A DNA stretch of 21,362 nt. It comes from a virus. Below, piece by piece: positions 2,518-18,398 of this stretch (position 1 is the stretch's first letter; each line of letters begins with the position of its first letter). The stretch covers positions 1 through 21,362 of IMG/VR virus record IMGVR_UViG_3300020204_000445. The stretch is one strand, 5' to 3'. Both the position numbers and the translations under genes were made by a program. The notes under the pieces are model-generated. The model searched no databases. It was not told the DNA's origin and worked only from the letters and a program-made list of their open reading frames with translations.

Positions 2518-2979
2518 ATGGCTCAAGGAAAGACATATGGAATAAGTTTTCCATTCGTGGATAGTATTGAAGGTAAGTATTTGGAGTTAACCGAATACGT
2601 AACCGAAGAAATTCGAACAAATCTTATTCATCTTCTTTTGACAAGAAAAGGTAGTCGTTATTTTCTTCCAAATTTTGGGACAAGATTATACGAATACATT
2701 TTCCAACCTATGGATGGACCAACATTTGCCGAGATTGAATCTGAAATTCGTGACTCAGTCCAACAATTTCTACCTAATTTACAGATTACAAATATAATTA
2801 TACGAGCAGCTTCTGATGAGGCTGCTGGTATGACTGTAACCACCGCTGGTAATGTTGTAAATCCAGAACTCACAATTCCTAATCAAAATGTGTCCGAATA
2901 TACAGCAAAAGTTAGAATTGATTATGCTATTTCTAATGATGTATTTAATTCTAAGGACTTTGTAATTATTAATATCTAA
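2518..2979 (+). CDS. gp25: Baseplate wedge protein, GPW/gp25 family
   Basis: Small baseplate wedge protein of contractile tails (T4 gp25, P2 gpW, type VI secretion TssE). In that family it forms part of the wedge core bundle and helps start sheath polymerisation. At 153 residues it is slightly longer than T4 gp25 (about 130). Family features seen: RKGSRYFLPNFGT at residues 43-55 followed by LYEYIF, then a helix with I-x-x-x-I spacing (73-84) leading into a beta strand (QITNIII, 89-95). The usual E-P-R motif at that junction reads L85-P86-N87 here. A loop of about 20 residues (100-125, Thr/Ala/Asn-rich) seems inserted before the last strand. No Shine-Dalgarno is visible. The stop is one base before the gp6-like ATG, so the two are surely co-translated neighbours. 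The W-J order is the classic one. Confidence 0.9.
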   Translation: MAQGKTYGISFPFVDSIEGKYLELTEYVTEEIRTNLIHLLLTRKGSRYFLPNFGTRLYEYIFQPMDGPTFAEIESEIRDSVQQFLPNLQITNIIIRAASDEAAGMTVTTAGNVVNPELTIPNQNVSEYTAKVRIDYAISNDVFNSKDFVIINI

Positions 2980-2980
2980 T

Positions 2981-4822
2981 ATGGCTGAAAGAAAAATATC
3001 ATACACGGCAAGGGATTTTGTGACAATTCGACAAGAACTCATCGATTACACTAGGACATACTATCCTGAGTTAATTGATAATTTTAATGACGCTGCAATA
3101 TTTTCAGTGTTTTTGGATTTAAATGCCGCGGTTGCGGACAATCTTCATTATAATATTGATAGGAGTATTCAAGAGACCGTACTTCAATTTGCACAACAAA
3201 GATCTTCTATCTACAATATTGCAAGGACTTATGGACTTAAAATACCGGGACAAAGACCTTCAGTGGCTTTGGTTGACTTTTCAATAACAGTACCAGTATT
3301 CGGAGATAAAGAAGATGAGAGATATTTGGGATCACTTAGGAGAGGAAGTCAAGTAATAGGTGCGGGACAAATATTCGAAACTGTTTATGATGTAAACTTT
3401 GCATCACCATTCAATGTTGATGGTGTTCCTAATAGATTAAAAATTCCAAATTTTGATGTTAACAATAACCTAATCAATTATACAATAACCAAAAGAGAAA
3501 CGGTCGTCAATGGAATTACCAAAGTTTTCAAAAGAACCATATTACCAAATGATGTAACGCCATTTTTCAGTTTCTTTTTACCTGAAAAGAATGTATTAGG
3601 TATAACGTCTATGATACAAAAACCTGGTACCGCATATTCAAATGTACCATCAGATCAAGAGTTTTTGGGATTACAAGGTAGATGGTATGAAGTTCCAGCA
3701 CTTGCTGAAAGTAGAATTTTTGTAGAAGACCCATCTAAACCATCAGATGATCCTGCGATTAAAGTTGGCGTTTACATAGAAACACAACAAAGGTTTATTA
3801 CTGAGTACACACCAGAGGGTTTCTATAAAATAACATTTGGTGGTGGTACTAATACTGCTGACGATCAATTAAGAGAATTTACAGCTCTTGATGTCCCACT
3901 TAAAATTCAAAGGTATCAAAACAATTCATTAGCTCTAGGCTCTATCCCTCAAGCTAACACAACATTATTTATTCAATATAGAATTGGTGGTGGTCTTGGA
4001 ACAAATTTGGGCGTTAATGTAATTAATCAGATTGGTTCTGTAAATTTCTTTGTCAATGGGCCGTCTGAAATTATCAATACTCAAGTTGTAAATTCCTTGG
4101 TTTGTAATAACCCTGTAGCTGCAATTGGTGGTGCTGGGTATCCTTCAACAGAGGAAGTTCGTAATTATGTTACCTATAATTTTAGCGCTCAAAACAGAGC
4201 GGTAACTATTCAGGACTATGTGGCTGTCTTGAGAAATATGCCACCACAATTTGGCGCTCCAGCAAAAGTTTCGGTCACAGAAAACAATAACAAGATCAAC
4301 GTTAATATATTATCATACAATCAGGACGGGCAATTAGTTCCTGAAGTTTCCCAAACCTTAAAAAATAATATTGCGGAATATCTTTCAAATTACAGAATGA
4401 TCAATGATTATGTAACGGTTGGTAGTGCTCAAGTCATTGATATTGCAATAGATGTCTCGGTTGTTTTGGATGCGTCACAGAACCAAGGAGTTGTGATAAC
4501 GAATATTATCGATAAAATTACAACATTCTTTAGTCCTGCGGTCAGAAACATGGGACAGAATGTTGTTTTATCTGAACTTTACAGAATTATACAAAATGAA
4601 AACGGTGTATTGAGTGTTAATGATATTTCTGTTATTGGTAAAGTTGGTGGACAATATTCATCCGCACAAACATCCATGCCGTACTCCAATTTGGAAACGA
4701 AAAAAATATCACTAGTTGATAACACAATATTTGCGGAACCAAGTCAAATATATCAAGTAAGATATCCAAACAGGGATATTACTGTCAGAACCAAAAACTA
4801 TCAATCAATTATTTTGACCTAA
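2981..4822 (+). CDS. gp6: Baseplate wedge protein, gp6 / baseplate J family
   Basis: Likely the gp6/gpJ homologue, which dimerises to form the inner ring of the baseplate wedge and contacts gp25 and gp7/gpI. Its 613 residues compare with about 660 for T4 gp6. The N-terminus (SYTARDFVTIRQELIDYTRT) followed by a helical segment with FLDLNAAVADNLHYNIDRS is typical: these proteins open with a helical bundle. Next comes a beta-rich core with the baseplate-J style ITFGGGTN near residue 285. The region after residue 380 (GGAGYPSTEEVRNYVTYNF, then AVTIQDYVAVLRNMPP) matches the usual pattern of an acidic helix followed by T-x-x-D-Y in the C-terminal half. It sits immediately after gp25. A 74-base gap follows, the longest in the window. 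Identification rests on remembered family pattern plus gene order. Confidence 0.87.
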   Translation: MAERKISYTARDFVTIRQELIDYTRTYYPELIDNFNDAAIFSVFLDLNAAVADNLHYNIDRSIQETVLQFAQQRSSIYNIARTYGLKIPGQRPSVALVDFSITVPVFGDKEDERYLGSLRRGSQVIGAGQIFETVYDVNFASPFNVDGVPNRLKIPNFDVNNNLINYTITKRETVVNGITKVFKRTILPNDVTPFFSFFLPEKNVLGITSMIQKPGTAYSNVPSDQEFLGLQGRWYEVPALAESRIFVEDPSKPSDDPAIKVGVYIETQQRFITEYTPEGFYKITFGGGTNTADDQLREFTALDVPLKIQRYQNNSLALGSIPQANTTLFIQYRIGGGLGTNLGVNVINQIGSVNFFVNGPSEIINTQVVNSLVCNNPVAAIGGAGYPSTEEVRNYVTYNFSAQNRAVTIQDYVAVLRNMPPQFGAPAKVSVTENNNKINVNILSYNQDGQLVPEVSQTLKNNIAEYLSNYRMINDYVTVGSAQVIDIAIDVSVVLDASQNQGVVITNIIDKITTFFSPAVRNMGQNVVLSELYRIIQNENGVLSVNDISVIGKVGGQYSSAQTSMPYSNLETKKISLVDNTIFAEPSQIYQVRYPNRDITVRTKNYQSIILT

Positions 4823-4896: not shown

Positions 4897-7800
4897 ATGT
4901 CCAATAGTTACAGAATCAGAACTCAAGTAGGGGTAGATCAACAGGTCAATGTTCAATTAGATCAAGATTTTGATCAATTAGAAATTTTATCATTAAAAAT
5001 TAGACAAGAAGATGTTTATCCACGTTTTTGTGCTGATTATGGGGTTGTTGCTGGTAGGGTAATTGTAAATGACGGGTTTGGTGTTCCGAATGTTAAAGTC
5101 AGTGTTTTTGTACCATTAGATCAAGTCGATGTACAAAATGAAATAATATCGAATTTATATCCATATCGTACGGTAACTGATACTAACGAGGATGGTTACA
5201 GATATAATTTGTTACCTTATGATAAACAACATGGGGGTCATACACCAACTGGAACATTTCCATCCAAACAAGATATTATTACAAATCCAGTATTGATTGA
5301 AATTTACGAAAAATACTATAAATTCACCGTAAAAACAAATTCGAGTGGTGATTTTATGATTATGGGAGTACCACTTGGTGAACACCAGTTAGTGATGGAT
5401 TGTGATCTATCTGACATTGGTCCTTTTTCATTATCAACTCAGGATTTAGTTGATATAGGACTTGCATTACCTGAAGAAGTTGATGGTAACAAATTCCCAG
5501 CATCTAACAACTTAGCGTTTTTACCTCAAATAGTCAACCAAATTAAAACAATACAGGTACAACCATTTTGGGGGGATCCTGAGACTTGTCAAATAAGAAT
5601 TACACGACAAGATTTCAATTTGGTCGATTCTGGTGTTAAGATCATTCCATCCGCTTTGTTTATGGGGTCTTTATTTACCAATGTTGATGAACAGAGTTTA
5701 AGTAAAAGATGTAGACCGAAAAATGGAATTGGTAAACTATGTAACTTAACAAGTGGACCAGGTGAAATAATCGCAGTTCGTCAAACAATTTTTAATGATA
5801 AAAATGGATATCCTATTTTAGAACAAGCAAATCTCCCATCAGGTGGAAAAGTTATAGATACTGATGGTGTATTTGTATTCAATGTTCCTATGAATATGGA
5901 TTATGTTACGACTAACGAATTTGGTGAACAAATTATTAGTTTAGACCCTAATGTAGGTATCCCAACATCTGGAAAGTACCGTTTCAAGATTAAGTATGAT
6001 CAACCACCAACTTTTGAAAAACGAGAAATCAGAAGGGGATATTATTTGGTTCCAAACATTAAAGAATATGGTTGGAATCAATCTCAAACGGATCCTGCGT
6101 ATAATATTAACACTAACTCGACAGAATATAAAAAATTTCAAAGTTCATATTATTTCGGTTTAGATTGGAGCGGTTACACTAACGGTTTTCCACCCACAAA
6201 TAACGAATTTATCAATCGTATGAGTGAGATGATAAATTGTGAAGACACTTTTTATCAATTGAAATACAAAAAAGTTTACACAACCGCCGCTTTGATTGAC
6301 AATTTTAAAAGTGGAATTTTTGTTAATAGGTTTGTGGCAATCAAGGATATTACTGATGAAACTTGTGAAGGAACTATCAACAAGTTTCCAGCTACTGATG
6401 CGAATTATAAATTTGATTTCATTTATTTTGTTGTAAACATACTTCTGACTATTTTAACACCCATACTATTTGTTTTAATTATTATTTTACATGTACTATC
6501 CTTGTTACTCACCTTTTTAAGAGAATTTTTTATACTTGTTATTTTACCAGTACTCAAGTTAGTTTATAGACTTTGTAATTGGGCAAGAAAAATTGGATTC
6601 AGGGTAAAATGTAAAAAACCACCAACACCATCAGAAATAAGGAAAAGATTTCCTGATTTGAAAAAACTTAAAATTCCTATGTTAACTTATCCTGATTGTC
6701 AAGCTTGTGATTGTTCAGGGGAAGATATCTCTGGAGGTGGTGGGTTTGAAGATATTAGTTGTAACGCAGATTTAAATATACCAGAAAATTGGACACAACC
6801 TTATAATGTCAATAATTGGGACCTCATAGAGTTTGAAAAAATTCAATATATGTGGGCTGGTTGGGGTTGGGATGAAGTTGAACCTAGAGGTTGGCCTTAT
6901 GAACAAAGGATACCAAAAGCCGAAAATGGTAATAATACAATCCGAAATTGGTACTATTACGTTAATTGTCTCCCAACTTGGGAAACTATTAATATGTTTT
7001 CACTTAAAGGAAATTATTTTGATCATCCATCAGGTTGGTCAGGTAATGGCGGAATAAGTAGAATAGGTGTTTCGTTTAATCCTTATTTCAACCAAGGAAT
7101 ACAACATTATGATAACGTAATAGCTTTGTTGGTTGATGAACAATGTTTTACATCACTTTCGGGTCAAACCTTACTTACATTCCAAAATCCAAATTTATCA
7201 AAGGATTTGAATGCAGCTAATGTGATTTCGGGTCGTACATATACAAACACAGGTATAACAGTAAACTATGCTGATCCAATTAATACAGATCAACCAAATC
7301 TTTCTGTAACCTATCAAATAGGCGGTAATGCTCCACTACAGGGTAATGATTCTAAATATTTTTTTCCATCTGATTTAGAATATTTCCAAGTTATTACTGG
7401 AATGTCTTACAATCAGTTTGTTGATATGCAAGTTTCATATTTCACATCGGGTGGCATAAATTATTATTGTTCAAACGTGGTATTCAATGTAAATCGTGAT
7501 CCTACTATGCCCATCCCACAACAAAACCTTGCAACTTATATTCAAAGAAATACCCAAATAATTGGGTATACCGATTGTTTTGGAAATCCAAGAAGTGAAA
7601 ATTTAGGGCCAAATAATTTAGGGCCCAATAATACATTTCCACCATATGAAAGATGTATGAGAGTAGTAGCAGGTCAAACTCCTCAAATCACTAACTCGTG
7701 GCTTGATCCAACTCTACACACCACCCCGCTTGGCAGCGCTGCAACAATAAATATTGTAAGTTATAACACAAGTTGTAATGATAATTTGTATAAAAGATTA

Positions 7801-10155
7801 ACTAAAAATTTTACATTATTTTTCGACCCACAAGGAATCCAACTTCAGGCACAATACAATATACATACTAGTAATTATTTGAGTTATTATAAAGGTGAAC
7901 CATTATACATAGTTTTTATGGTCAGAGGGGTTGATCCTTACAGTGGTAAACATAAGGTATGGTATGACTTGTCTAGACTATTCGGATATGATCCTGTTTT
8001 CAATCCAAATACAATATCTGTTGTAGGTGATTACTACTTGAATATTCCAATTCAAGCTGGTGGTCGTTGTGTTAGACATGATCAACTAGTTAACAATACT
8101 AGTACACAACCTGACGGAAACAACCAAAATGCGACACTTAAACTGTATCATAATTCTTATTTATTTGAACCTGGAGTAAATTGGAATTCTTATGATTCAG
8201 ATTTACACTTATATTATTCTTCACTAGATGGAACACAAATAGATAAGTTTCAACCACCCGGATTTTATAATGGTCAAATTAGTTTGGCTGGTTTTAATTT
8301 GACTGGAAGTGACGTGAAACAAACTACAACTTCATTAAAATTAGAAGTAAATGTACAAGGTACAAATGCATACGCTCAAGACGAATATATTGAAGGTGGA
8401 TCATACATAAGATATAGTACTGGGTCTGGGTTTAATGGTAATATCAGACCATATGCTTATTTTGGCCCCTCATACATCAATGGGTCGTATTCCACACCAA
8501 CACCACCATCATCAAGACCGATTCTTCAGATGACAGATAAATTTAAATTGGTAATGAGAACTGATAGATTACCAACTGGTACTGATCTAGATACGTTGGG
8601 AACCAACACATTCTCATTTCAGTGTAGCACAAGTTTGGGTTATTATTTTATTTCTGAGTCAGGAGTTACAAATACTATTTTGGGTGACTTAACACCAGAT
8701 CCTGCATTGGATGATTTTAATGATGATATTGTTACTGGAACTACGACACAACAAATTTTGGAGTCACTGACTTGTCAAGGGTTAAGGGATTTAGGTTGTT
8801 ATCAAGGTTATGGTACTAATTTAATCATTAAATCCCCTACAGATCCATGCAATACTAACACAAATAAAAACTTACCAGTTATAAAAGACGGATGTTATGT
8901 GCTTTTAAATGAACCATTTGGTAGTTTATTTGGACGTAACAATGACTTTACAATTTTGAACGAATGGAAATTAAGATTTCGTACAACGCTAGCTCTTTGT
9001 CGTGGAGTTGTTTCACAAAGTTTCAATAATTCTTGGGTTAATGGTGGATTGTTTGCTTTTCCATTTAGTAGTAATGTTTTCTTTGATTCTAATAATAAAC
9101 CATATGTAAGAAGGGTTGGGCCAAATGTACAAGGACAATCAGTTGAGTATAGTTTTTGTGGACTACAACTAGCTTTCGAAGAACAATCAAATAATTTTTA
9201 TTATAGGTCTAGCCCATATAATACAGCAAATGGTTTTATTGGTGCTTCATATAGTTCTGATTTTTATAGAAGACAGTCAAATACCAAGTACTTAAAGTAT
9301 CCGACAACAATGGTTGATTTAGGCCCACAATATTTTTGGACAAAAGATGTCTACTATTCGGATGCGTACTACGGGTATATTATGGATAATCTTGATCCAA
9401 CAACTTATGGCCCGACCGAAAATTTAACATCCATATTCGCACTATCACGTATTATAAATGCCAATGAGTTTTTTTCTGCTGGTGTAGTAAGAGGATTATT
9501 TTCTAGAACAAATTTAAGAGTAGATGGTGATTATGCACAAATGTTACAAATAAATTCACAGTATGGTATCAACCCATTTAATGTTGAAAATTATCCAGAC
9601 ACGGGTGTAAATGATTCACCAATATATTTCGGATTAGTTCCAACCACAATACAAAACATAACAAAACCTGTTTTTGGTATCTTTTATTCGGGGGAAACTA
9701 CGGATAGAGATTTGATTTCGCCAAAACGAATTGATTATACATCAACTGGATCAATTGCCAATTTTGTTGCGGATAACTTACCTGTTATAAATCAAAAAGT
9801 TCCATTCTATCCTTGGAAAAATAATGGGTTTTCAAGTGTTGGGACAACAACTCCACCATCCATTTTTGGTAATGAATCGAATAGTTGGATTACGGATAAA
9901 AATTCTTTTTCAGCGTTTACATATCAAAGACTTGATAGATTTTACTTTCCATTTTTTGTTGGTGGTAACCAACAAGTTGAAAATTTATTGGGGTATATCT
10001 ATCAAACAAATCCATCAGGCTTGAATTTACCAAATGTTGTTCCTGGTACAACAAACCTAGAAACACTTACGTCAGGGCCATTTTATTTTTATTTCGGAAT
10101 AAAAAATGGCGCAACAGCGATAGATAAATTCAGAGAAAAATATATTCCGAATTAA
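4897..10155 (+). CDS. Giant virion structural protein with carboxypeptidase-regulatory-like N-terminus and internal hydrophobic segment
   Basis: A 1752-residue protein, almost certainly virion structural, between the gp6-like gene and other tail genes. Residues about 48-165 look like one or two carboxypeptidase-regulatory-like beta sandwiches (GRVIVNDGFGVPNVKVSVF; T-D-T-N-E-D-G-Y; NSSGDFMIMGVPLGEHQL). The long remainder is beta-rich, Asn/Tyr/Thr-rich and looks like fibre or baseplate periphery. Residues 508-557 are strongly hydrophobic with helix-like composition (about 50 residues, broken by R542-E543). A basic stretch follows (about 564-592) with C560, C572, the cluster C601-x-x-C604-x-C606, and C622. 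No signal peptide is visible. By position it could be a functional counterpart of T4 gp7, but I see no sequence proof, and the downstream 1217-residue protein carries the better gp7/gpI-like signal. A 15-bp tandem duplication lies at 7600-7629. As a gene it is certain; its function is not. Confidence 0.93.
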   Translation: MSNSYRIRTQVGVDQQVNVQLDQDFDQLEILSLKIRQEDVYPRFCADYGVVAGRVIVNDGFGVPNVKVSVFVPLDQVDVQNEIISNLYPYRTVTDTNEDGYRYNLLPYDKQHGGHTPTGTFPSKQDIITNPVLIEIYEKYYKFTVKTNSSGDFMIMGVPLGEHQLVMDCDLSDIGPFSLSTQDLVDIGLALPEEVDGNKFPASNNLAFLPQIVNQIKTIQVQPFWGDPETCQIRITRQDFNLVDSGVKIIPSALFMGSLFTNVDEQSLSKRCRPKNGIGKLCNLTSGPGEIIAVRQTIFNDKNGYPILEQANLPSGGKVIDTDGVFVFNVPMNMDYVTTNEFGEQIISLDPNVGIPTSGKYRFKIKYDQPPTFEKREIRRGYYLVPNIKEYGWNQSQTDPAYNINTNSTEYKKFQSSYYFGLDWSGYTNGFPPTNNEFINRMSEMINCEDTFYQLKYKKVYTTAALIDNFKSGIFVNRFVAIKDITDETCEGTINKFPATDANYKFDFIYFVVNILLTILTPILFVLIIILHVLSLLLTFLREFFILVILPVLKLVYRLCNWARKIGFRVKCKKPPTPSEIRKRFPDLKKLKIPMLTYPDCQACDCSGEDISGGGGFEDISCNADLNIPENWTQPYNVNNWDLIEFEKIQYMWAGWGWDEVEPRGWPYEQRIPKAENGNNTIRNWYYYVNCLPTWETINMFSLKGNYFDHPSGWSGNGGISRIGVSFNPYFNQGIQHYDNVIALLVDEQCFTSLSGQTLLTFQNPNLSKDLNAANVISGRTYTNTGITVNYADPINTDQPNLSVTYQIGGNAPLQGNDSKYFFPSDLEYFQVITGMSYNQFVDMQVSYFTSGGINYYCSNVVFNVNRDPTMPIPQQNLATYIQRNTQIIGYTDCFGNPRSENLGPNNLGPNNTFPPYERCMRVVAGQTPQITNSWLDPTLHTTPLGSAATINIVSYNTSCNDNLYKRLTKNFTLFFDPQGIQLQAQYNIHTSNYLSYYKGEPLYIVFMVRGVDPYSGKHKVWYDLSRLFGYDPVFNPNTISVVGDYYLNIPIQAGGRCVRHDQLVNNTSTQPDGNNQNATLKLYHNSYLFEPGVNWNSYDSDLHLYYSSLDGTQIDKFQPPGFYNGQISLAGFNLTGSDVKQTTTSLKLEVNVQGTNAYAQDEYIEGGSYIRYSTGSGFNGNIRPYAYFGPSYINGSYSTPTPPSSRPILQMTDKFKLVMRTDRLPTGTDLDTLGTNTFSFQCSTSLGYYFISESGVTNTILGDLTPDPALDDFNDDIVTGTTTQQILESLTCQGLRDLGCYQGYGTNLIIKSPTDPCNTNTNKNLPVIKDGCYVLLNEPFGSLFGRNNDFTILNEWKLRFRTTLALCRGVVSQSFNNSWVNGGLFAFPFSSNVFFDSNNKPYVRRVGPNVQGQSVEYSFCGLQLAFEEQSNNFYYRSSPYNTANGFIGASYSSDFYRRQSNTKYLKYPTTMVDLGPQYFWTKDVYYSDAYYGYIMDNLDPTTYGPTENLTSIFALSRIINANEFFSAGVVRGLFSRTNLRVDGDYAQMLQINSQYGINPFNVENYPDTGVNDSPIYFGLVPTTIQNITKPVFGIFYSGETTDRDLISPKRIDYTSTGSIANFVADNLPVINQKVPFYPWKNNGFSSVGTTTPPSIFGNESNSWITDKNSFSAFTYQRLDRFYFPFFVGGNQQVENLLGYIYQTNPSGLNLPNVVPGTTNLETLTSGPFYFYFGIKNGATAIDKFREKYIPN
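7600..7629 (+). repeat. 15-bp in-frame tandem duplication
   Basis: Bases 7600-7614 and 7615-7629 are identical at 14 of 15 positions. They encode Asn-Leu-Gly-Pro-Asn twice in a row inside the 1752-residue protein. The only difference is at the third position of the Pro codon (cca/ccc). This looks like a recent slippage duplication in a loop. Confidence 0.7.
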
Positions 10156-10159
10156 AATT

Positions 10160-11902
10160 ATGGATGTACAAAACTATCTTGTTGTAAAACCTGATTTATT
10201 GAATGCCGCGGCACCACAAACGGATATCAATATTAATACACAACTTAATGAAACTCAGTCACAACTTATCGAGTATGATCAAACATCTAATGTTAGTTTG
10301 ATCACAATATTCGACAATGAAAGACAAGCTTCAAATACTTTCAGACCAACATTCAAGATTAATTACATTTATGAAAATAATATAGTTGGGTATTGTCCAA
10401 ATCCCAGTTGGTCAAATTACTTGAATAATCTCTACTATACACAACCTTTGGGTTCTTTGGTGTCTCAACAATGGAGTGGACTTCCATCGTACCAAGAGTT
10501 TGAATTTATTCGTACAGATGTCACAAACAACCAACTAAACACTCAACCATTTAATGGTTTTATTATAAAAAGTTCTTCAACTTACAACTGGGCGGTTAGA
10601 TTGTCATATCCATTTGAGAACCTCACAGGTGTCACAATGTCTTACGATTTTGCAAATGCTAATCAATTCACATGGAGTTCGAGTGATGGTATACCTTTTA
10701 TTATCTCAACAGGCACTGATAATGGTTTGCAAATATTACAATTCAATTGTCCAGTAAAACACGGATTATCTATCGGAGAGTATGTTGAATTATCTAATGC
10801 ATTTAACTATAATGGTGTTAATACCTATCAAGTTTATGCCCTAGGAAATAATACCTATGGATCCGATGAATACATTTTTAATCTATACAATGTCGGGTAT
10901 ACAGGTAATACTTTTTTTTCAGGTAAAATAGGAACGTTCAAAAGAATAGTTGACATCTACAACTCGGGGGAAACTAAATCTAGATATTATGTTAGAAATC
11001 ACAAAATAATATCTAATACTGAAGATAGTATGATCACTAGAAGTGGTTTTGAAGAAAACGCGTATGCAAACAAATCATCTTACCAACTATCAGCTCTTAC
11101 ACCAAATAAAATAGCTAACATTTTTCAATACCAAAGTTCATATACGTACAATGTGACTTTTGAACGTGACTTGGATTTGACAAATTTATTGGATAATAAT
11201 AAAAAACCTATTTCTGAAATTTTTGCAACATTTCAGTGGGTTGGTTATTTTGGACGGCACAATAGACTACAACGAGGATGGCAATTGAATTTGACTAGTG
11301 GATCCACAAACACATGGTTTAATTTAAATAACACCAATGCTATAGAAACAAATCGCAATTTAGTTTATACTAGGGTTGAAAGATCACTCAACACTACCAC
11401 ATTATACTACTTTAACTTTACGGTTAATTTACCGAAACAAAGTGGTGATACGGTTTATGGTGATTTTTGTGAATACAACGACTCGGAACAACTTGAAAGA
11501 GTTATTTCACCGTATATGAATAAATTTTCTTATAATCAAGCTTTGTTCACATCAGATTTGACAACAAATCAAACAAACCCTAACGGTTATTATTATCAAG
11601 TTCATTTTCCCGTGAGAATAAAAACATTTTCAAATTATATTGAAACCGCAGCACCGAATACTGTGACGGACATTCCGAGCTACGCTTATTTTTCAGAAAA
11701 TCAAAATCTTTGGTTGTGGAGAGATCTTTATACATATGGGTTTATTGATGAAGACAATAGAGGAGTTGATTTTCCATTCCTTAATGAAGCACATTACCCA
11801 TTTGGAAATATAACATTCAGATTATTTTCCGATGAGTCATCATTCAACCCGACTGATTTTTATCAGATAACAATAGAACCTTTAACTGATCCTTGTGAAT
11901 AA
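10160..11902 (+). CDS. Putative baseplate or tail structural protein (580 aa)
   Basis: A 580-residue protein of unassigned family, four bases after the 1752-codon gene and overlapping the next gene by 8 bases. It is beta-rich and Asn/Tyr/Thr-rich like its neighbours, without signal peptide or membrane segment. Recognisable local patterns are KHGLSIGEYVELSNAF near residues 199-214, which resembles a short beta-roll or strand pair, and SRYYVRNHKI near 275. A C-terminal half with repeated aromatic strands follows (FATFQWVGYFGRHNRLQRG). By position it might be the counterpart of T4 gp8 (334 residues), which follows gp7, but I cannot see sequence similarity. The start ATG follows the junction aattaaaatt, an A-rich leader without Shine-Dalgarno. 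Structural role is inferred from context and composition. Confidence 0.85.
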   Translation: MDVQNYLVVKPDLLNAAAPQTDININTQLNETQSQLIEYDQTSNVSLITIFDNERQASNTFRPTFKINYIYENNIVGYCPNPSWSNYLNNLYYTQPLGSLVSQQWSGLPSYQEFEFIRTDVTNNQLNTQPFNGFIIKSSSTYNWAVRLSYPFENLTGVTMSYDFANANQFTWSSSDGIPFIISTGTDNGLQILQFNCPVKHGLSIGEYVELSNAFNYNGVNTYQVYALGNNTYGSDEYIFNLYNVGYTGNTFFSGKIGTFKRIVDIYNSGETKSRYYVRNHKIISNTEDSMITRSGFEENAYANKSSYQLSALTPNKIANIFQYQSSYTYNVTFERDLDLTNLLDNNKKPISEIFATFQWVGYFGRHNRLQRGWQLNLTSGSTNTWFNLNNTNAIETNRNLVYTRVERSLNTTTLYYFNFTVNLPKQSGDTVYGDFCEYNDSEQLERVISPYMNKFSYNQALFTSDLTTNQTNPNGYYYQVHFPVRIKTFSNYIETAAPNTVTDIPSYAYFSENQNLWLWRDLYTYGFIDEDNRGVDFPFLNEAHYPFGNITFRLFSDESSFNPTDFYQITIEPLTDPCE

Positions 11903-12716
11903 AATAGAAGTTATATTTAACAATCAACCAAAAGACTTAATAATTCCGTTGGAGTCTTCTTGGGATTTTTATGGCCAACAAGATGGTGTTGAAAAATTCG
12001 AACAGAGTGTATTAGAACAAATAATCAATAAAGATCAAGATTTTGAGGTAACAAGGTTCGAACATAATTTGTATTATACAAATGTCAAAGAAGAAACTTC
12101 AATAAACTATGAATTTTGGTTATACAATCCAAATCTAATTAACACTTCACCAATCATACCTGCACTATCTGGTACTTGGGAAAATTCTTATACATCCAAG
12201 TTTTCGAATTTGGACATCTATTATCAAAAATCAAATTTTAAAAAATCTTTCTGGAAACTTGATTTGTATGATACACCAAACAATATCAATCAGAAAGCAT
12301 ACGTAACTATAATTTTACCAACACATCAAGGATTGTTACAAACAACTCAATTAGGTTTTTTTCAAAATGTATTCATAAAAAAACCAAAATATGTTTTAGA
12401 TTATTTGGGTGACAAAGAAGGATTTTTTATTTACTGGTTGAAAAAAAGGAATTATTTGGACATCGATACTTTTTATATGTCGGCAAAATTTTTTAATGGT
12501 AACACTGGTCAATTTATAAGAATGTTAAATAGACCACAATACCAATTGACTAATACATCAAACCCATTTTCTTTTAGTCAAGAAGATTATTTTTATTATC
12601 GAGTTAACTTAGACTATACCACACAGAAGTATCAAGTATCTAAGTTTCCAAATATAGTAAGAGTTGGAACTGAAATAGAGCCCATAAAATGGTATGAATA
12701 TGTAAATCCGACGTAA
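11895..12716 (+). CDS. Hypothetical virion-associated protein (273 aa)
   Basis: Not recognised. It starts with GTG at 11895, overlapping the end of the preceding gene by 8 bases, and its stop is directly followed by the ATG of the next gene. Such overlap suggests translational coupling. The protein is rich in aromatic residues (Tyr, Phe, Trp) and Asn, with short charged segments. It has no signal peptide, membrane helix or cysteine motif that I can see. A lysine-rich segment lies in the middle (YLGDKEGFFIYWLKKRNYLD, about residues 169-188). The beginning (MNKIEVIFNNQPKDLIIPL) looks like a natural start. Its place in an uninterrupted tail-gene series suggests a structural or assembly role; nothing more can be said. 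Confidence 0.8.
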   Translation: MNKIEVIFNNQPKDLIIPLESSWDFYGQQDGVEKFEQSVLEQIINKDQDFEVTRFEHNLYYTNVKEETSINYEFWLYNPNLINTSPIIPALSGTWENSYTSKFSNLDIYYQKSNFKKSFWKLDLYDTPNNINQKAYVTIILPTHQGLLQTTQLGFFQNVFIKKPKYVLDYLGDKEGFFIYWLKKRNYLDIDTFYMSAKFFNGNTGQFIRMLNRPQYQLTNTSNPFSFSQEDYFYYRVNLDYTTQKYQVSKFPNIVRVGTEIEPIKWYEYVNPT

Positions 12717-13799
12717 ATGGAATCCCAAATAATAAAAATTAAAATATCACCTGAATTTTTGTTGACTAATAAAACAGAAATTCAAGTTTCTGGAGAAACA
12801 TACGGTGTCTATTCAGGTATTACACAGATGTTGAGGGGTGGCCCCAATGAAACATCTTTATTTACTGGCTTTACGATCCCAATTTTATTGACACAGACAA
12901 CGATTGATGTTGGATATTTTTCCGTTTTTGATGGTGCGATTTCTCAATTGAATGTTGTTACAAATTTTGTTTTTTCTTCAACAACAGGCAATCCATACAC
13001 TTGGTACATTTATAACACCTCTGATGTTGAATTTAAGTCGTTTCTTAATTTATCGGCTTACAAAGTTGATTGGGGTGATGGATCACCACTTGAAACAATT
13101 ACAGAGTATACACCAAATTCAATTGTACATAATTATCCCAATTCACCAAGTGGTTATACAATTACACTTCAACAAATCAATCCTTGGGGGAATACGACGA
13201 TCTTCAAACAAATTGAAACACCATACCAAATTGTACCAATCTTAGATCCAACTGGTGAGGCTTTTTTTACACCGATGGTCGGTAGTTGGATAGGAACACC
13301 TATATCATATAATTTTATTTTCAGTGGGGATGCCATCAACACCGTACCAGCACAAGTAAGTTCCGCATACATAACAGTCCCATTCACTGTTAGTGGTATA
13401 ACAACGTCACGAATAAGAGAATTATACATCTATGGCCCACCACCCAATTATATTATCAATGTACCAGTAATACAAAATGGAGATATATTCGGAATTATTA
13501 CAGATCTTAATCCTGTTTTTACCGCCTATACTATACAAGATATTAACTTTTATGATTATAGTGATGGAACAACTCTATACTTTCTAAATTCTAGTGGTTT
13601 GACATCCGATCATTTGGTTGCAGAACCTTTAGTGAAAGAAGAATTTTTATTAGGTGTTGTATCTGAACCTGAAGTACAATCGGACATTTTTATTGATCGA
13701 GGAAAAAACTCAGCATATGAACGTATACAAAGATTGGGCGAAGTGGATAGTATGAGGGATTTATTAACTTATGGATATGGTTTTTTTGAAGTGAGCTAA
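12717..13799 (+). CDS. Virion structural protein with PKD-like domain (360 aa)
   Basis: A 360-residue protein whose ATG abuts the previous stop codon. Residues about 100-165 contain a PKD-like beta-sandwich signature: KVDWGDGSP at 116-124, then HNYPNSPSGYTITL at 138-151, matching the usual W-G-D-G ... H-x-Y ... Y-x-V/I-x-L pattern. PKD domains are common in extracellular and surface proteins, especially in Bacteroidota, and occur in phage tail proteins. The C-terminus has a charged helical region (DIFIDRGKNSAYERIQRLGE, about 322-341) followed by a short aromatic end (YGYGFFEVS). This contrasts with the beta-rich remainder and may be the attachment segment to the baseplate or tail. There is no signal peptide. 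Role as a tail decoration or fibre-like protein is inferred. Confidence 0.82.
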   Translation: MESQIIKIKISPEFLLTNKTEIQVSGETYGVYSGITQMLRGGPNETSLFTGFTIPILLTQTTIDVGYFSVFDGAISQLNVVTNFVFSSTTGNPYTWYIYNTSDVEFKSFLNLSAYKVDWGDGSPLETITEYTPNSIVHNYPNSPSGYTITLQQINPWGNTTIFKQIETPYQIVPILDPTGEAFFTPMVGSWIGTPISYNFIFSGDAINTVPAQVSSAYITVPFTVSGITTSRIRELYIYGPPPNYIINVPVIQNGDIFGIITDLNPVFTAYTIQDINFYDYSDGTTLYFLNSSGLTSDHLVAEPLVKEEFLLGVVSEPEVQSDIFIDRGKNSAYERIQRLGEVDSMRDLLTYGYGFFEVS

Positions 13800-13812
13800 A
13801 ATGAAATTTTGA

Positions 13813-13824
13813 TATTTATAAATA
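13813..13824. promoter_or_regulatory. 12-bp palindrome containing a T4-type late-promoter octamer on both strands
   Basis: TATTTATAAATA is a perfect palindrome. It contains TATAAATA (13817-13824), identical to the T4 late-promoter core, seven bases before the ATG at 13832 in one of the few real gaps between genes. If used, transcription would start at or very near the ATG, giving an almost leaderless mRNA. In AT-rich sequence this octamer is expected by chance a few times per 20 kb, so position is the main argument. A late sigma-like factor is not in the window. Confidence 0.35.
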
Positions 13825-13831
13825 AAAAAAA

Positions 13832-14740
13832 ATGGCAATAGGAACATACGGAACAATCAGACCTGCGGACTGCTCACCTGAAGATGTAGAAATTCTAATG
13901 AACTACACCCCTTCAAGGGACGTGACAAACGATTTTGTTCTCACCAAATTGGACGCGACTCAGATATTGAGACCGTATTTTAATAACGCACAAACTGGTG
14001 GAAATTCAAATGAAATTTTGGGTGGGTTGTATAACTTAAGATTACCAGCTGAAACATTTACTCAATTGGGGATTTACACTTTGTACATCAGACCTGCACA
14101 AATTAGAACATCAATCACAGATTGTAATGTTCTCTCAGCATTACCCAATGTTAAAGGGATTATAATTGACTTATCAAACGTACCAAGTCAATATGTTAAC
14201 AAGTTTCAAGCACAAGGTTTAGTAGGATTTAGAGTTGAATATCTTGACAGTAATGGAAGTAAAATACCAAACTTTTTTAGAATAATTACATCAAACTTTT
14301 TTTGTGAAGCAATTGTTCAAAATCTTACAAACACATCACAAAAATCTATAAGATATAGATATAGTGAAGGACAAACCAATTTAGTTTTTTGTACTGTATC
14401 ACCGAGTAGTTCACCAAGTAATAATCCAGCGGCAACACCTTATATTGGACAACCCGGACAAAATATTGTAATATCAAATACATTTTTTAATCCAGTAACC
14501 GTTGAGGTTCAAGTTACTCAATATGATTTGGAAACATTGAATATTGCATTCTATGGTAATCAAACCAAATCTATGGAAGATGGTATCTACACAATATATG
14601 ATCCACAAAATAATATCTATTCACAATTCAATCTTTATGAAATTAAAGATGAGTTTGACAACTTATTATATGAAGTTAAACAGAACAGAGGAGAAAACAT
14701 TGATTTCAGTAAATCATTTCAATTAATTACACAACAATAA
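13832..14740 (+). CDS. Putative virion structural protein (302 aa)
   Basis: Not recognised as a named family. It follows a 32-base gap with an A-rich leader (aataaaaaaaa) and a possible late-promoter octamer, so it may begin its own transcript that continues into the 1217-codon gene 4 bases downstream. Features seen: an N-terminal soluble segment (GTYGTIRPADCSPEDVEILM), four cysteines (in TIRPADC, ITDC, FFCEA and FCTV), a Ser/Pro/Asn-rich linker at about 190-205 (SPSSSPSNNPAATP), and beta-rich surroundings. The C-terminal part (IYTIYDPQNNIYSQFNLYEI) is Asn/Tyr-rich. There is no membrane segment or signal peptide. Its position directly before the gpI-like gene suggests a baseplate or fibre-connector role, which is inference only. 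Confidence 0.82.
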   Translation: MAIGTYGTIRPADCSPEDVEILMNYTPSRDVTNDFVLTKLDATQILRPYFNNAQTGGNSNEILGGLYNLRLPAETFTQLGIYTLYIRPAQIRTSITDCNVLSALPNVKGIIIDLSNVPSQYVNKFQAQGLVGFRVEYLDSNGSKIPNFFRIITSNFFCEAIVQNLTNTSQKSIRYRYSEGQTNLVFCTVSPSSSPSNNPAATPYIGQPGQNIVISNTFFNPVTVEVQVTQYDLETLNIAFYGNQTKSMEDGIYTIYDPQNNIYSQFNLYEIKDEFDNLLYEVKQNRGENIDFSKSFQLITQQ

Positions 14741-14744
14741 GTGA

Positions 14745-17700
14745 ATGGTAAGAAGGTTTTTTCGAACTAACGGAGCATCAGGAGCCGATACACCATTTGA
14801 TAATCTTGTTGGTTTACAAACGGTTACAGGTGGCGGACTTACTCAAGGTAATTTTGAGTTTGATATCTCTTTGTCTGAAAAAAACAATAGAACTTTTAAT
14901 ATTGGAGTTTTTGGTGATCCTATATCACTAGATTTTTTGGGATTAACATCAGTTAATGAGTCAAGAGAACTTCAAGCAAAAGAATATAGGGTATTCCCAA
15001 ACATTGATCTTTCTTTAGTAACAAATTTTACTTTATATGGTTCATTAAGAAAACGTCTTGAAGTATCAGTACAAAGAATACTTGGTTTTTTTCCAGCTGG
15101 ACTACAAATTGATTTTTTGAATCTTGATTACTCTACAGGTAACACGGCATATAATATCTCTTATAATCAAATACCCAATTTAACAACCTTAACAATTGAT
15201 GTTAATAAAATTCAAAACCCTTTTTCAATCGATTATAGTTCTAAATCTAAAATCAATTTACAAACTAGAGAGGCGGAATTTTCACCTATAAGGGATTTAA
15301 CTAATAGGTTTAGGGATTATGTATTGGTTGTTAATGATATCAGTTATACACTTATTGATTTTAGACCATCCAACAGTTTAACTTCTGGTACAATCATTTT
15401 GAAAGTTTCAGGTCAACCTTTTAGCTCAAGTACCACAAACTTGAATCTTTTAATAAGACCGAGTGATTTTTATGTTGAAAAAATATTTTCAGAAGATTTT
15501 GATGAAGTTGTTCAGTTTCTTTTGAACCGATTAGTTGTACCCAAATATACAGCAACGTTTACTGTTCCTGTTGAAGGGGACAATGGTATAGTCGGATTTC
15601 AAGTTCAGTCGGTGACGTTTCCTTTAGATGGTAGTTGGAATTTAGATATAAGAACAAATAATTTTGAAAATTATTTAGAAAAATTAAATACTATTGGTCA
15701 ACAATATGATGAATTTAAAACTAATCTTGTAACAAGATTCTTGACAACCAATTCTTTTCTAGAATTTGATACGCCCGACCAAAAAGTATTTAAAATACTT
15801 CAGATATACGGAAGAAGTTTTGATCAAATTAAATTGTACATTTCAGCACTTGCAAATATGACAAGTGTACAATATCAATTAGGGGATACGATACCTGACG
15901 AATTGGTAAAATATTTGGCAGAAACTTTGGGTTGGAGTATCAATATATCACCTATTGTTCAACAAAATTATCTACAATCTACACTATCCACTTCGGGAAT
16001 AAGTCAGTATGACGGATATTCTAGAGAATTAACCGATAACGAAATTAACTATAATTTTTATCAAAACTTGATACTAAATTCTGCTTATTTGTATAAATCT
16101 AAAGGTACAAGAAAAGCTATTGAGTTTTTGTTAAGGTTTTTAGGAATACCAGAAGCGGTCACTGAGTTTAATGAATTTGTTTACGTCGCCGATCGAAGAA
16201 TAGATATGCGACAATTCTACGACCAACTGTTTCAAATTACTGGTGGAACCTACGTCGATGTAATTACAGAGTATGATAGTCAAATAACTTACAAAATTTA
16301 TGGTATTACATACACAGGTTTCAGTTCTACAACAATCGTTCAATCGGTGAGCGTGAATTTTGACAATTATCCAGTTGATGAGTTTGGGTATCCTTATGCA
16401 CCCGTTGAGACTGATGATTACTATTTTGAAAAAGGTGCGGGGTGGTTTGAATCAACACCACAACATAGAAGTCCTGAAATAGTAGATCCTACTTTTTCTG
16501 TCTTTACAGGATCGAGTCCATATGTACAAACACAATTACAACCTTTTACATATGGACAAGAATATTTCCAAAGATTTAGATCTTTCCCTTACATGAATTT
16601 GGGATTCAACTTAAAATTGGTAAGAGATAATAAAAAATCTTGGCAACCACCAATATTGAGAAAAAGTACTAACGCTAATTTAAATGCTTACTACATTGTA
16701 CAAGATGATAAATTAACGTTGAATGCTAAAAATACTGAGATTTTTCTAAACCCTGGACAAGGTTTGTTATATGATGTATGGTATATGTCAAGAAACTTTA
16801 ATTATCCAATACCAAATTCAGGTATGACACCCGCTTATCCAAGTTTTGGTAGTTACGATTGGAGTTTCATTGACCCAGAAGCTAATAAAAAAACATTTTT
16901 TGAATTCCAAATTGACTTTGTAAGATCTACAATCGATGTTAGAGATAGATGGTTTAGTACGGATGGAAAAACGAGTGGTTATTCATCGTTATTAGATATA
17001 TTTTATAATTTTTTACAATCAAATCAAAATGCTGGTGTATCGAATTATGACTTCAACTATAAAAAATTAATTGAGTATGTTAACGGAATTGGAACGAATT
17101 GGATCTGTTTGATAGAACAATTTGTACCAGCTACAACTATCTGGCAGACAGGTGTAAGATATGAAAATTCTGCGATGCAAAGACAAAAATTTGTTTGGAA
17201 AAAACAAGAACCTTGTTATTTAGTCTCACTTCAAGTTCCATTACCATCACCAACACCAACAATTACATCTACTCAAACATCAACCAACACATCTACTCCA
17301 ACAAATACTCAAACACCAACAAATACTCTAACACCTACTCAAACACCAACAAATACTCTAACACCAACTGAAACACCTACTCAAACACCAACAGAAACTC
17401 CTACACCAACAAATACTCTAACACCAACTGAAACCCCAACAGAAACTCCTACACCTACAAATACTGTGACACCAACCGAAACACCTATAAATAGCCCAAC
17501 ACCAACAGAAACACCAACAGAAACACCGACAGAAACACCAACAGAAACCCCAACAGAAACACCAACAGAAACACCGACAGAAACACCTACACCTACAAAT
17601 ACACCAACACCTACAAATACACCAACACCTACAGAAACTCCTACACCTACAAATACTGAAACACCTACCGAAACTCCTACACCTACAAATACCGAAACTC

Positions 17701-18398
17701 CTACACCTACAAATACTGAAACACCTACACCTACAAATACTCTAACACCTACAAATACTCTAACACCTACAAATACACTTACAACTACACCAACTCAAAC
17801 TCCAACAAAAACACCAACACCAACACCATCTAGTACGTGTCCAGGAACAACTGTCACTTGTTATAGATGGTTACTTAATAATATAGGATTAGGCGCAAGT
17901 ACATACGGATATACCGATTGTAATAATACACCACAAACCATTGTTGTCGGACCTAATAATTATACTACTGTTTGTTCTATATCAATGCCAACCATTATTT
18001 CGGGTCCAATTCCCCCGGCTCCTCAACAAGGAAAAGTTTGCGGTTCGGTTTGTATTCCACTAACACCAACTCCAACAATGACAAAAACACCAACTAAAAC
18101 TCCAACAAACACACCAACATCAACCCAAACAGTCTTCTCTTTCCTAGGTGGGACTACTTTTTTTGATACAACAGGACCCGATGCTTGTAATAATTTTTCA
18201 ATAAGCAGAACTTTTTATAGCAATAAATCATTACTGAGCTTGGGTGTTTCAGATATTATGTACGACAATTTTGCACTTACTATTCCTACAAATGGGAATG
18301 GATTATGGATTGCACTGTCTAATAATAGTGGCGTCACTAAGGTGGCTTTTGAGATCGCCTCAAACGGATTAATATTGGACACTTATATTTGCCCCTAG
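14745..18398 (+). CDS. gpI-like baseplate protein fused to a Thr/Pro stalk and distal knob-like domains
   Basis: A 1217-residue modular protein. Residues about 1-330 are beta-rich and unassigned. Residues 386-397 ([12 protein letters not shown]) and 445-469, including [18 protein letters not shown], match the phage tail protein I (P2 gpI) pattern: a helix ending in L-G-W, then K-G-T-x-x-A-I plus a helix ending in L-G-I-P. In P2-type tails gpI is a wedge component comparable to part of T4 gp7. Residues up to about 830 end in [16 protein letters not shown] and [10 protein letters not shown] Thr/Pro tract (833-1028) follows, then a small Cys-containing domain (1029-1104), a short second Thr/Pro tract (1107-1129) and a last domain (1130-1217). 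The order anchor, stalk, knob suggests a baseplate-attached receptor-binding fibre. ATG 14745 lies 4 bases after the previous stop; no Shine-Dalgarno. gpI similarity is by remembered pattern. Confidence 0.87.
17241..17828 (+). repeat. Thr/Pro-encoding minisatellite (stalk 1)
   Basis: About 590 bases built from related in-frame units that encode residues 833-1028 of the gpI-like protein. Three unit lengths are visible. The first is a 12-base unit for Glu-Thr-Pro-Thr (about 17500-17590). The second is a 24-base unit for Glu-Thr-Pro-Thr-Pro-Thr-Asn-Thr (about 17635-17735). The third is an 18-base unit for Leu-Thr-Pro-Thr-Asn-Thr (about 17735-17785). Copies differ largely at third codon positions (cca/cct/ccg/ccc, act/aca), so the amino-acid pattern is better conserved than the DNA. 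Such tracts are expected to be extended, protease-tolerant spacers and to change length by slippage or recombination. Confidence 0.9.
18063..18131 (+). repeat. Short second Thr/Pro tract
   Basis: Encodes residues 1107-1129 of the gpI-like protein, alternating Thr-Pro with Met, Lys, Asn and Ser substitutions ([18 protein letters not shown]). Unlike the first tract it is basic rather than acidic. It separates the two small C-terminal domains, as a hinge or spacer would. Confidence 0.8.

Follow-up and report, generated by a model that had tools for sequence, protein, structure and literature searches.

The locus raises the question why a protein of 1752 residues, encoded directly behind baseplate genes of a virus, carries one stretch as hydrophobic as a transmembrane helix, and what this stretch may do. 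The window, i.e. the whole stretch of DNA analysed, comprises 21,362 nucleotides (IMG/VR virus record IMGVR_UViG_3300020204_000445). Its features are compiled in Table 1, and the 1752-residue protein is referred to as the giant.

Table 1. Features of the window around the giant gene, with residue numbers referring to the giant.
Feature	Position	Strand	Basis or remark
gp25-like baseplate wedge protein	2518..2979	+	Pfam GPW_gp25 5.9e-12; PHROG baseplate wedge
gp6 / baseplate J-like wedge protein	2981..4822	+	Pfam Baseplate_J 7.8e-7; phrog_219 2.6e-20
Giant protein	4897..10155	+	1752-aa ORF, third gene of the gp25 - gp6 - giant cluster
N-terminal domains, residues 45-390	5029..6066	+	two beta-rich CnaB / carboxypeptidase-regulatory / transthyretin-like modules
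Further invariant cysteines C45 (5029), C231 (5587), C282 (5740), C448 (6238)	5029..6240	+	28/28 box-bearing representatives each
C490, invariant, just before the helix	6364..6366	+	28/28 box-bearing representatives; 77/77 box members
Hydrophobic helix, residues 508-565	6418..6591	+	AlphaFold2 helix, hydropathy, periodicity
Basic stretch, residues 558-592	6568..6672	+	13 K/R vs 2 D/E, counted by eye
YPDC-x-x-C-x-C cysteine box, C601, C604, C606	6697..6714	+	28/28 box-bearing representatives
Downstream genes of the same cluster	10160..18398	+	580, 273, 360, 302 and 1217 aa

Relatives of the giant and their contractile-phage setting

Relatives were collected from IMG/VR, where one scan returned at least 583 places and others yielded 237, 278 and 225 overlapping matches. 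A set of 308 loci was reduced to 307 with an N-terminal match, 271 with an open frame of at least 700 aa, and finally 105 representatives of less than 80% identity. The giant is immediately preceded by a gp6-like gene in 102 of the 104 representatives with at least 1 kb of upstream sequence, and a gp25-like gene is present in 75 of the 81 with 2.9 kb; the giant is single-copy in all 12 records searched. All ten large records searched for a tail-sheath gene, one from a single cell and the others viral contigs of relatives with lengths of 73-322 kb, contain it, six of them above the Pfam cut-off, from which it follows that these phages, several of them giant, are contractile; the window is not long enough to reveal a sheath gene.

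The one-genome-per-species bacterial and archaeal collection contained two relatives only, one in a single-cell genome and one in a metagenome-assembled genome. Both are probably phage contigs, and the former is also an IMG/VR contig. This single-cell genome (G009) is from Prochlorococcus sp. AG-409-L21, with the giant at locus L082 (QCKH01000004.1) and the sheath gene on a second contig; it possibly represents an infected cell or a co-sorted virus, and hints at a host. Searching 50,697 deposited phage records with three giants by tblastn gave no match at the E limits used. By gp6, the nearest deposited relatives were Flavobacterium phage immuto and Microcystis phage Mel-JY01 (about 26% identity) and one uncultured 484 kb phage (28%); among the 213 ORFs of the tail-region stretches of these phages, neither the N-terminal profile of the giant nor the five downstream proteins found a match. 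Among open-access papers, no title or abstract opening describing the giant was found. The one strong match in a structure library is itself uncharacterized: A0A8S5LA66 of Myoviridae sp. ctPuP5, matched in BFVD over 465 columns with 37% identity (E 1.4e-46).

The window giant had no Pfam or PHROG family above cut-off, no PADLOC match and no PDB sequence match. None of the searches matched it to a known baseplate family; specifically, a gp7-like or Afp12 wedge gave no PHROG, Pfam or PDB sequence match, and the gp7-like wedge fold was not among the Foldseek and VIA matches listed for the modelled residues 1-625. The first-pass annotation had called the giant a tail protein. The conserved gp6-like neighbour and the sheath genes bear out the tail setting, while the lack of a match to any known baseplate family leaves gene position as the basis on which we infer a baseplate protein. 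The C-terminal domains vary among giants: DUF5122 repeats were found in L055 (2.4e-39), and the C-terminal region of L226 has a weak SprB match below cut-off. A C-terminal YFG-type motif, considered as a family mark, was dropped, as a crude pattern found it in just 37 of 81 complete ORFs.

The hydrophobic helix and its predicted structure

Residues 508-557 are the sole strongly hydrophobic stretch of the giant, with a length of about 50 residues, or one to two transmembrane lengths. The KD19 maximum is 3.04 at residue 523; all windows above 1.6 start within residues 504-544, and R542, E543 and K554 are the only charged residues in 508-557. In shuffled giants the mean maximum was 1.78, and none of 2000 shuffles reached 3.04, which upholds the description of this stretch in the first-pass annotation as being as hydrophobic as transmembrane helices. 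The hydrophobic block is present in 103 of the 105 representatives: in all 77 members with the cysteine box, within the interval from residue 471 to the box (KD19 2.01-3.36), and in 26 of the 28 non-box members (KD19 2.19-3.45). The loss of hydrophobicity in homologues that the annotation had named as grounds for abandoning its proposal was thus not seen. The two exceptions, L083 (KD19 0.59) and L244 (KD19 1.26), are also the only two of the 104 lacking a gp6-like gene upstream, and all 102 with gp6 keep the block.

As a control, 80 ORFs of at least 300 aa were compared across 12 stretches, of which one was the window and 11 came from other loci. Eight of them reached KD19 2.0, namely all seven giants present and one of the 73 other proteins (391 aa); as these stretches represent parts of the genomes, further proteins with a membrane segment may be encoded outside them. 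The genome is A+T-rich (29-37% G+C), which favours hydrophobic codons, and the hydrophobicity could on this account be a functionless by-product of base composition or drift. Given the shuffles, the recurrence of the block at the same place in nearly all representatives, and its rarity in other large ORFs, we consider such an origin extremely improbable; chance and base composition are ruled out by the shuffles together with the conservation.

Some giants depart from the common pattern in other respects. L083 and L244 are divergent, have neither block nor cysteine box, and show no gp6 in 3.2 kb upstream; the L083 protein is complete at 747 aa, and L244 reaches the contig end, but only past the expected position of the block. 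The giant of L111 carries a second, equally hydrophobic segment in mid-protein (residues about 1032-1085), as do L110 and L123. In L015, the frame breaks within the block near residue 543 and resumes near 576 in another frame, owing to either an assembly error or a real frameshift.

For residues 1-625, a monomer model was built with AlphaFold2 using the 105 relatives (pLDDT 83.6, pTM 0.70), which replaced a poor earlier model from 28 sequences (pLDDT 60). Residues 45-390 were modelled with pLDDT values of mostly 80-96. In a Foldseek search against the PDB, pilins were the best matches of the N-terminal domain (E 1.2e-5), and residues 28-251, where the likeness was probed best, were aligned by VIA-align to a prealbumin-like beta sandwich with Z of 5-7.3, under the guard value of 8 of this tool. 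The N-terminus thus resembles CnaB, carboxypeptidase-regulatory and transthyretin-like domains, a resemblance that, with Z at most 7.3, may reflect a common fold only. CnaB and CarboxypepD_reg profiles stayed below their cut-off of 32.3 bits, both for the relatives (at best 17.9 bits, E 0.0039, for L281) and for the window giant (13.7 bits).

After a low-confidence linker, the model shows one continuous 58-residue helix, residues 508-565, with block pLDDT values of about 84-95 from residue 511 on; residues 591-625 have block values of 34-55. The helix is not modelled as part of a globular core, the ordinary explanation for a hydrophobic segment that the annotation had weighed against its proposal, and the monomer model thus lends that explanation no support. 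With about 87 Å, the helix is longer than one bilayer crossing, and it contains R542, E543, K554 and prolines. We favour, with roughly even confidence, a reading in which a baseplate-region protein of large contractile-tailed phages uses this conserved helix to insert into a membrane or to anchor itself there.

The monomer model would, however, also be compatible with a trimer or hexamer in which the helices pack into a buried hydrophobic bundle. The helix might accordingly serve as the hydrophobic core of such an oligomer, a stalk or bundle in the tail, and never touch a membrane: tail proteins are usually oligomers, the single uninterrupted predicted helix is stalk-like, and the conserved H532 and N/S514 could be polar residues of a packing face. 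Averaged hydropathy over the helix is periodic with a best angle of 101 degrees (3, 0, 1 and 0 of 2000 permutations reached the observed value for four choices of range), and resolves a narrow polar face of N/S514, T/Q518, Q/T521, H532 (His in 69/77 box members), P/N539 and R/K542. This stripe could serve for packing, but hydrophobic residues cover about three quarters of the helix surface. In most soluble coiled coils the pattern is inverted, with a narrow hydrophobic stripe.

The helix also drifts faster than the folded domains while its hydrophobicity is kept, which does not favour a stalk. In 1500 sampled pairs, mean pairwise identity was 0.32 for residues 508-540 and 0.15 for 541-565, compared to 0.65 and 0.60 for the N-terminal domains, and mean KD of the two helix parts stayed at 2.14 and 1.52, respectively. 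Such drift at constant hydropathy would be expected of a lipid-facing segment, and a loosely packed hydrophobic bundle could also give it. In the box clade, finally, the length of the block ranges from 32 to 140 residues, which would be odd for the core of a precise bundle; the number of membrane crossings may accordingly vary. Taken together, we regard a stalk or bundle as somewhat unlikely.

Cysteines inside and beside the giant

Translation of positions 6418-6762 gives residues 508-622 and places C560, C572, C601, C604, C606 and C622 where the first-pass annotation had put them. The cysteine cluster it described holds for C601, C604 and C606 (Table 1); C560, C572 and C622 occur in just 17, 5 and 6 of the same 28 representatives and were dropped as members of a cysteine site. 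C490 and the invariant C45, C231, C282 and C448 had been missed. The basic region said to follow the block is present in the window giant, but net charge after the block is positive in only 47 of 77 box members, and a conserved basic flank was therefore dropped as a positive-inside argument.

The strict box pattern was found in 146 of 160 loci. The other 14 comprise four CxxCxC variants (L091, L139, L147, L160), the divergent L082 and L083, and fragments or broken ORFs that end before the box (L014, L015, L016, L067, L069, L077, L078, L097). In a tree of the N-terminal region, a single branch with support 97 separates the 77 rows having the box, in the form YPxCxxCxC or FPxCxxCxC, from all others, which corresponds to one change. 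Within this clade, C45, C231, C282 and C490 are each present in 77/77 members and C448 in 76/77. In the 28 non-box rows these cysteines are mostly lost: of the six positions scored, 20 rows retain C45 and C272 alone, and the outlying L223, L225, L226 and L281 retain C231, C282 and C490. Over the 150 residues after the helix, cysteine density exceeds that of the rest of the protein in 77/77 box members, where this is partly by construction of the motif, and in 23 of 26 non-box rows, so that both groups share, in different forms, an enrichment of cysteines behind the helix. Going by their co-conservation, the cysteines are candidates for a metal or disulfide site, with disulfides being less likely than a metal site given assembly in the cytoplasm.

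Beside the non-box giants, a small gene of 79-172 aa is found between gp6 and the giant in 24 of the 28 representatives. The N-terminus of its product reads MGCxTCK, MxCNCK or closely similar, and the product contains a strongly hydrophobic segment of KD19 2.5-3.6; an example is L082:7579-7992, directly upstream of the giant gene. No such gene was found in the 800 bases upstream of the giant in any of the 77 box representatives, and it matched no known family. A profile of 13 rows detected it in all four large non-box records of that group, two of which had contributed rows to the profile, and it was absent from all five box records, from G004 (the record of L281) and from the window. As the box clade arose once according to the tree, this distribution stands for one or a few evolutionary events and not for 101 independent ones. 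It suggests that a function combining cysteines and a membrane segment sits either inside the giant or beside it.

Proposed membrane step, its timing and precedents

Of the two parts of the favoured reading, a membrane-inserting or membrane-anchoring helix, the membrane step is the better supported; the timing, i.e. during entry or during assembly on the membrane of the producer, is the weaker part. For entry, the giant would be part of the baseplate or fibre network of the virion, where several copies would bring their helices together with the polar stripe facing inward. Upon firing of the tail, the helices would enter the host envelope and anchor there or line a passage, as proposed for the T5 tape-measure segment, and the cysteines would form a metal site securing the helix at its base.

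Release on contraction with permeabilisation of the host, as proposed in the first-pass annotation, is one of three possible roles. A more far-reaching reading would be a previously undescribed envelope-penetrating device of uncultured giant contractile phages: the 58-residue helices would join at the baseplate, polar stripe inward, and open the bacterial membrane. In one clade the cysteine cluster would clamp the helix at its base, and the sister clade would use the separate small CxxC membrane protein instead. We consider this combination improbable as a whole. If it were true, one device would exist in fused and split forms and do a job that is given to the tape measure in known phages. For the largely open question of how giant contractile phages get through the inner membrane, the widespread giant family offers a well-defined candidate element, of which the helix, the polar stripe and the cysteines are each testable. 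The naturally helix-less L083 and L244 provide ready comparisons, as does the split versus fused arrangement of the cysteines.

The annotation considered such a segment unusual for a baseplate or fibre protein; in tail proteins, hydrophobic membrane segments do have precedents. The T5 tape measure protein pb2 has a hydrophobic stretch of 46 residues that is known or proposed to insert into the membrane (PMC10038345), similar to the single stretch of about 50 residues here. As a siphophage tape measure, pb2 resides inside the tail tube, whereas the giant follows gp6 in contractile phages and is further set apart by its CnaB-like N-terminal domains. A tape measure would be expected to form a long coiled-coil rod setting the length of the tail and to be encoded between tube and baseplate genes; residues 1-625 of the giant are modelled as beta-rich domains and one long helix, and its gene follows gp6. 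Closer in tail type are T4 gp29 and phiCD508 gp59 of contractile phages, in which segments that are hydrophobic or predicted to be transmembrane are proposed to assist DNA passage through the membrane (PMC11948020). They are tape measures, the passages on them mention neither a cysteine box nor a CnaB-like domain, and no sequence link between them and the giant was found. In the present case, the protein bearing the segment is a different one, very large, encoded near gp6, and with a CnaB- or transthyretin-like N-terminus and variable C-terminal domains.

Precedents for anchoring in the producing cell come from contractile injection systems (CIS). In the thylakoid-anchored CIS of Anabaena, a predicted transmembrane helix of Cis13 (and an extension of Cis12) anchors the machine (PMC8894136), and in Streptomyces, CisA is involved in membrane anchoring of a CIS (PMC12237407). 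Cis13 belongs, like the giant, to the baseplate region of a contractile machine; it differs in that it acts in the producing cell, has a smaller segment (residues 122-154) and is not from a phage. By analogy, the giant could hold the growing baseplate at the inner membrane of the producer, or aid release, and have no use in entry. The small membrane-like gene beside 24/28 non-box giants would be compatible with an anchor complex of this kind, but in a free virion the helix would need to be concealed or lost, and we consider a role restricted to assembly or release unlikely.

The genes downstream of the giant had only weak PHROG matches of unknown function and otherwise no family; the order of their sizes is resembled in the neighbourhoods of L055, L106 and L082. 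Two of the downstream proteins contain long threonine-proline repeats of the type TPTETPT (window positions 17001-18000 and the last 400 bases), and GC skew is strong, -0.52, at positions 17001-18000.
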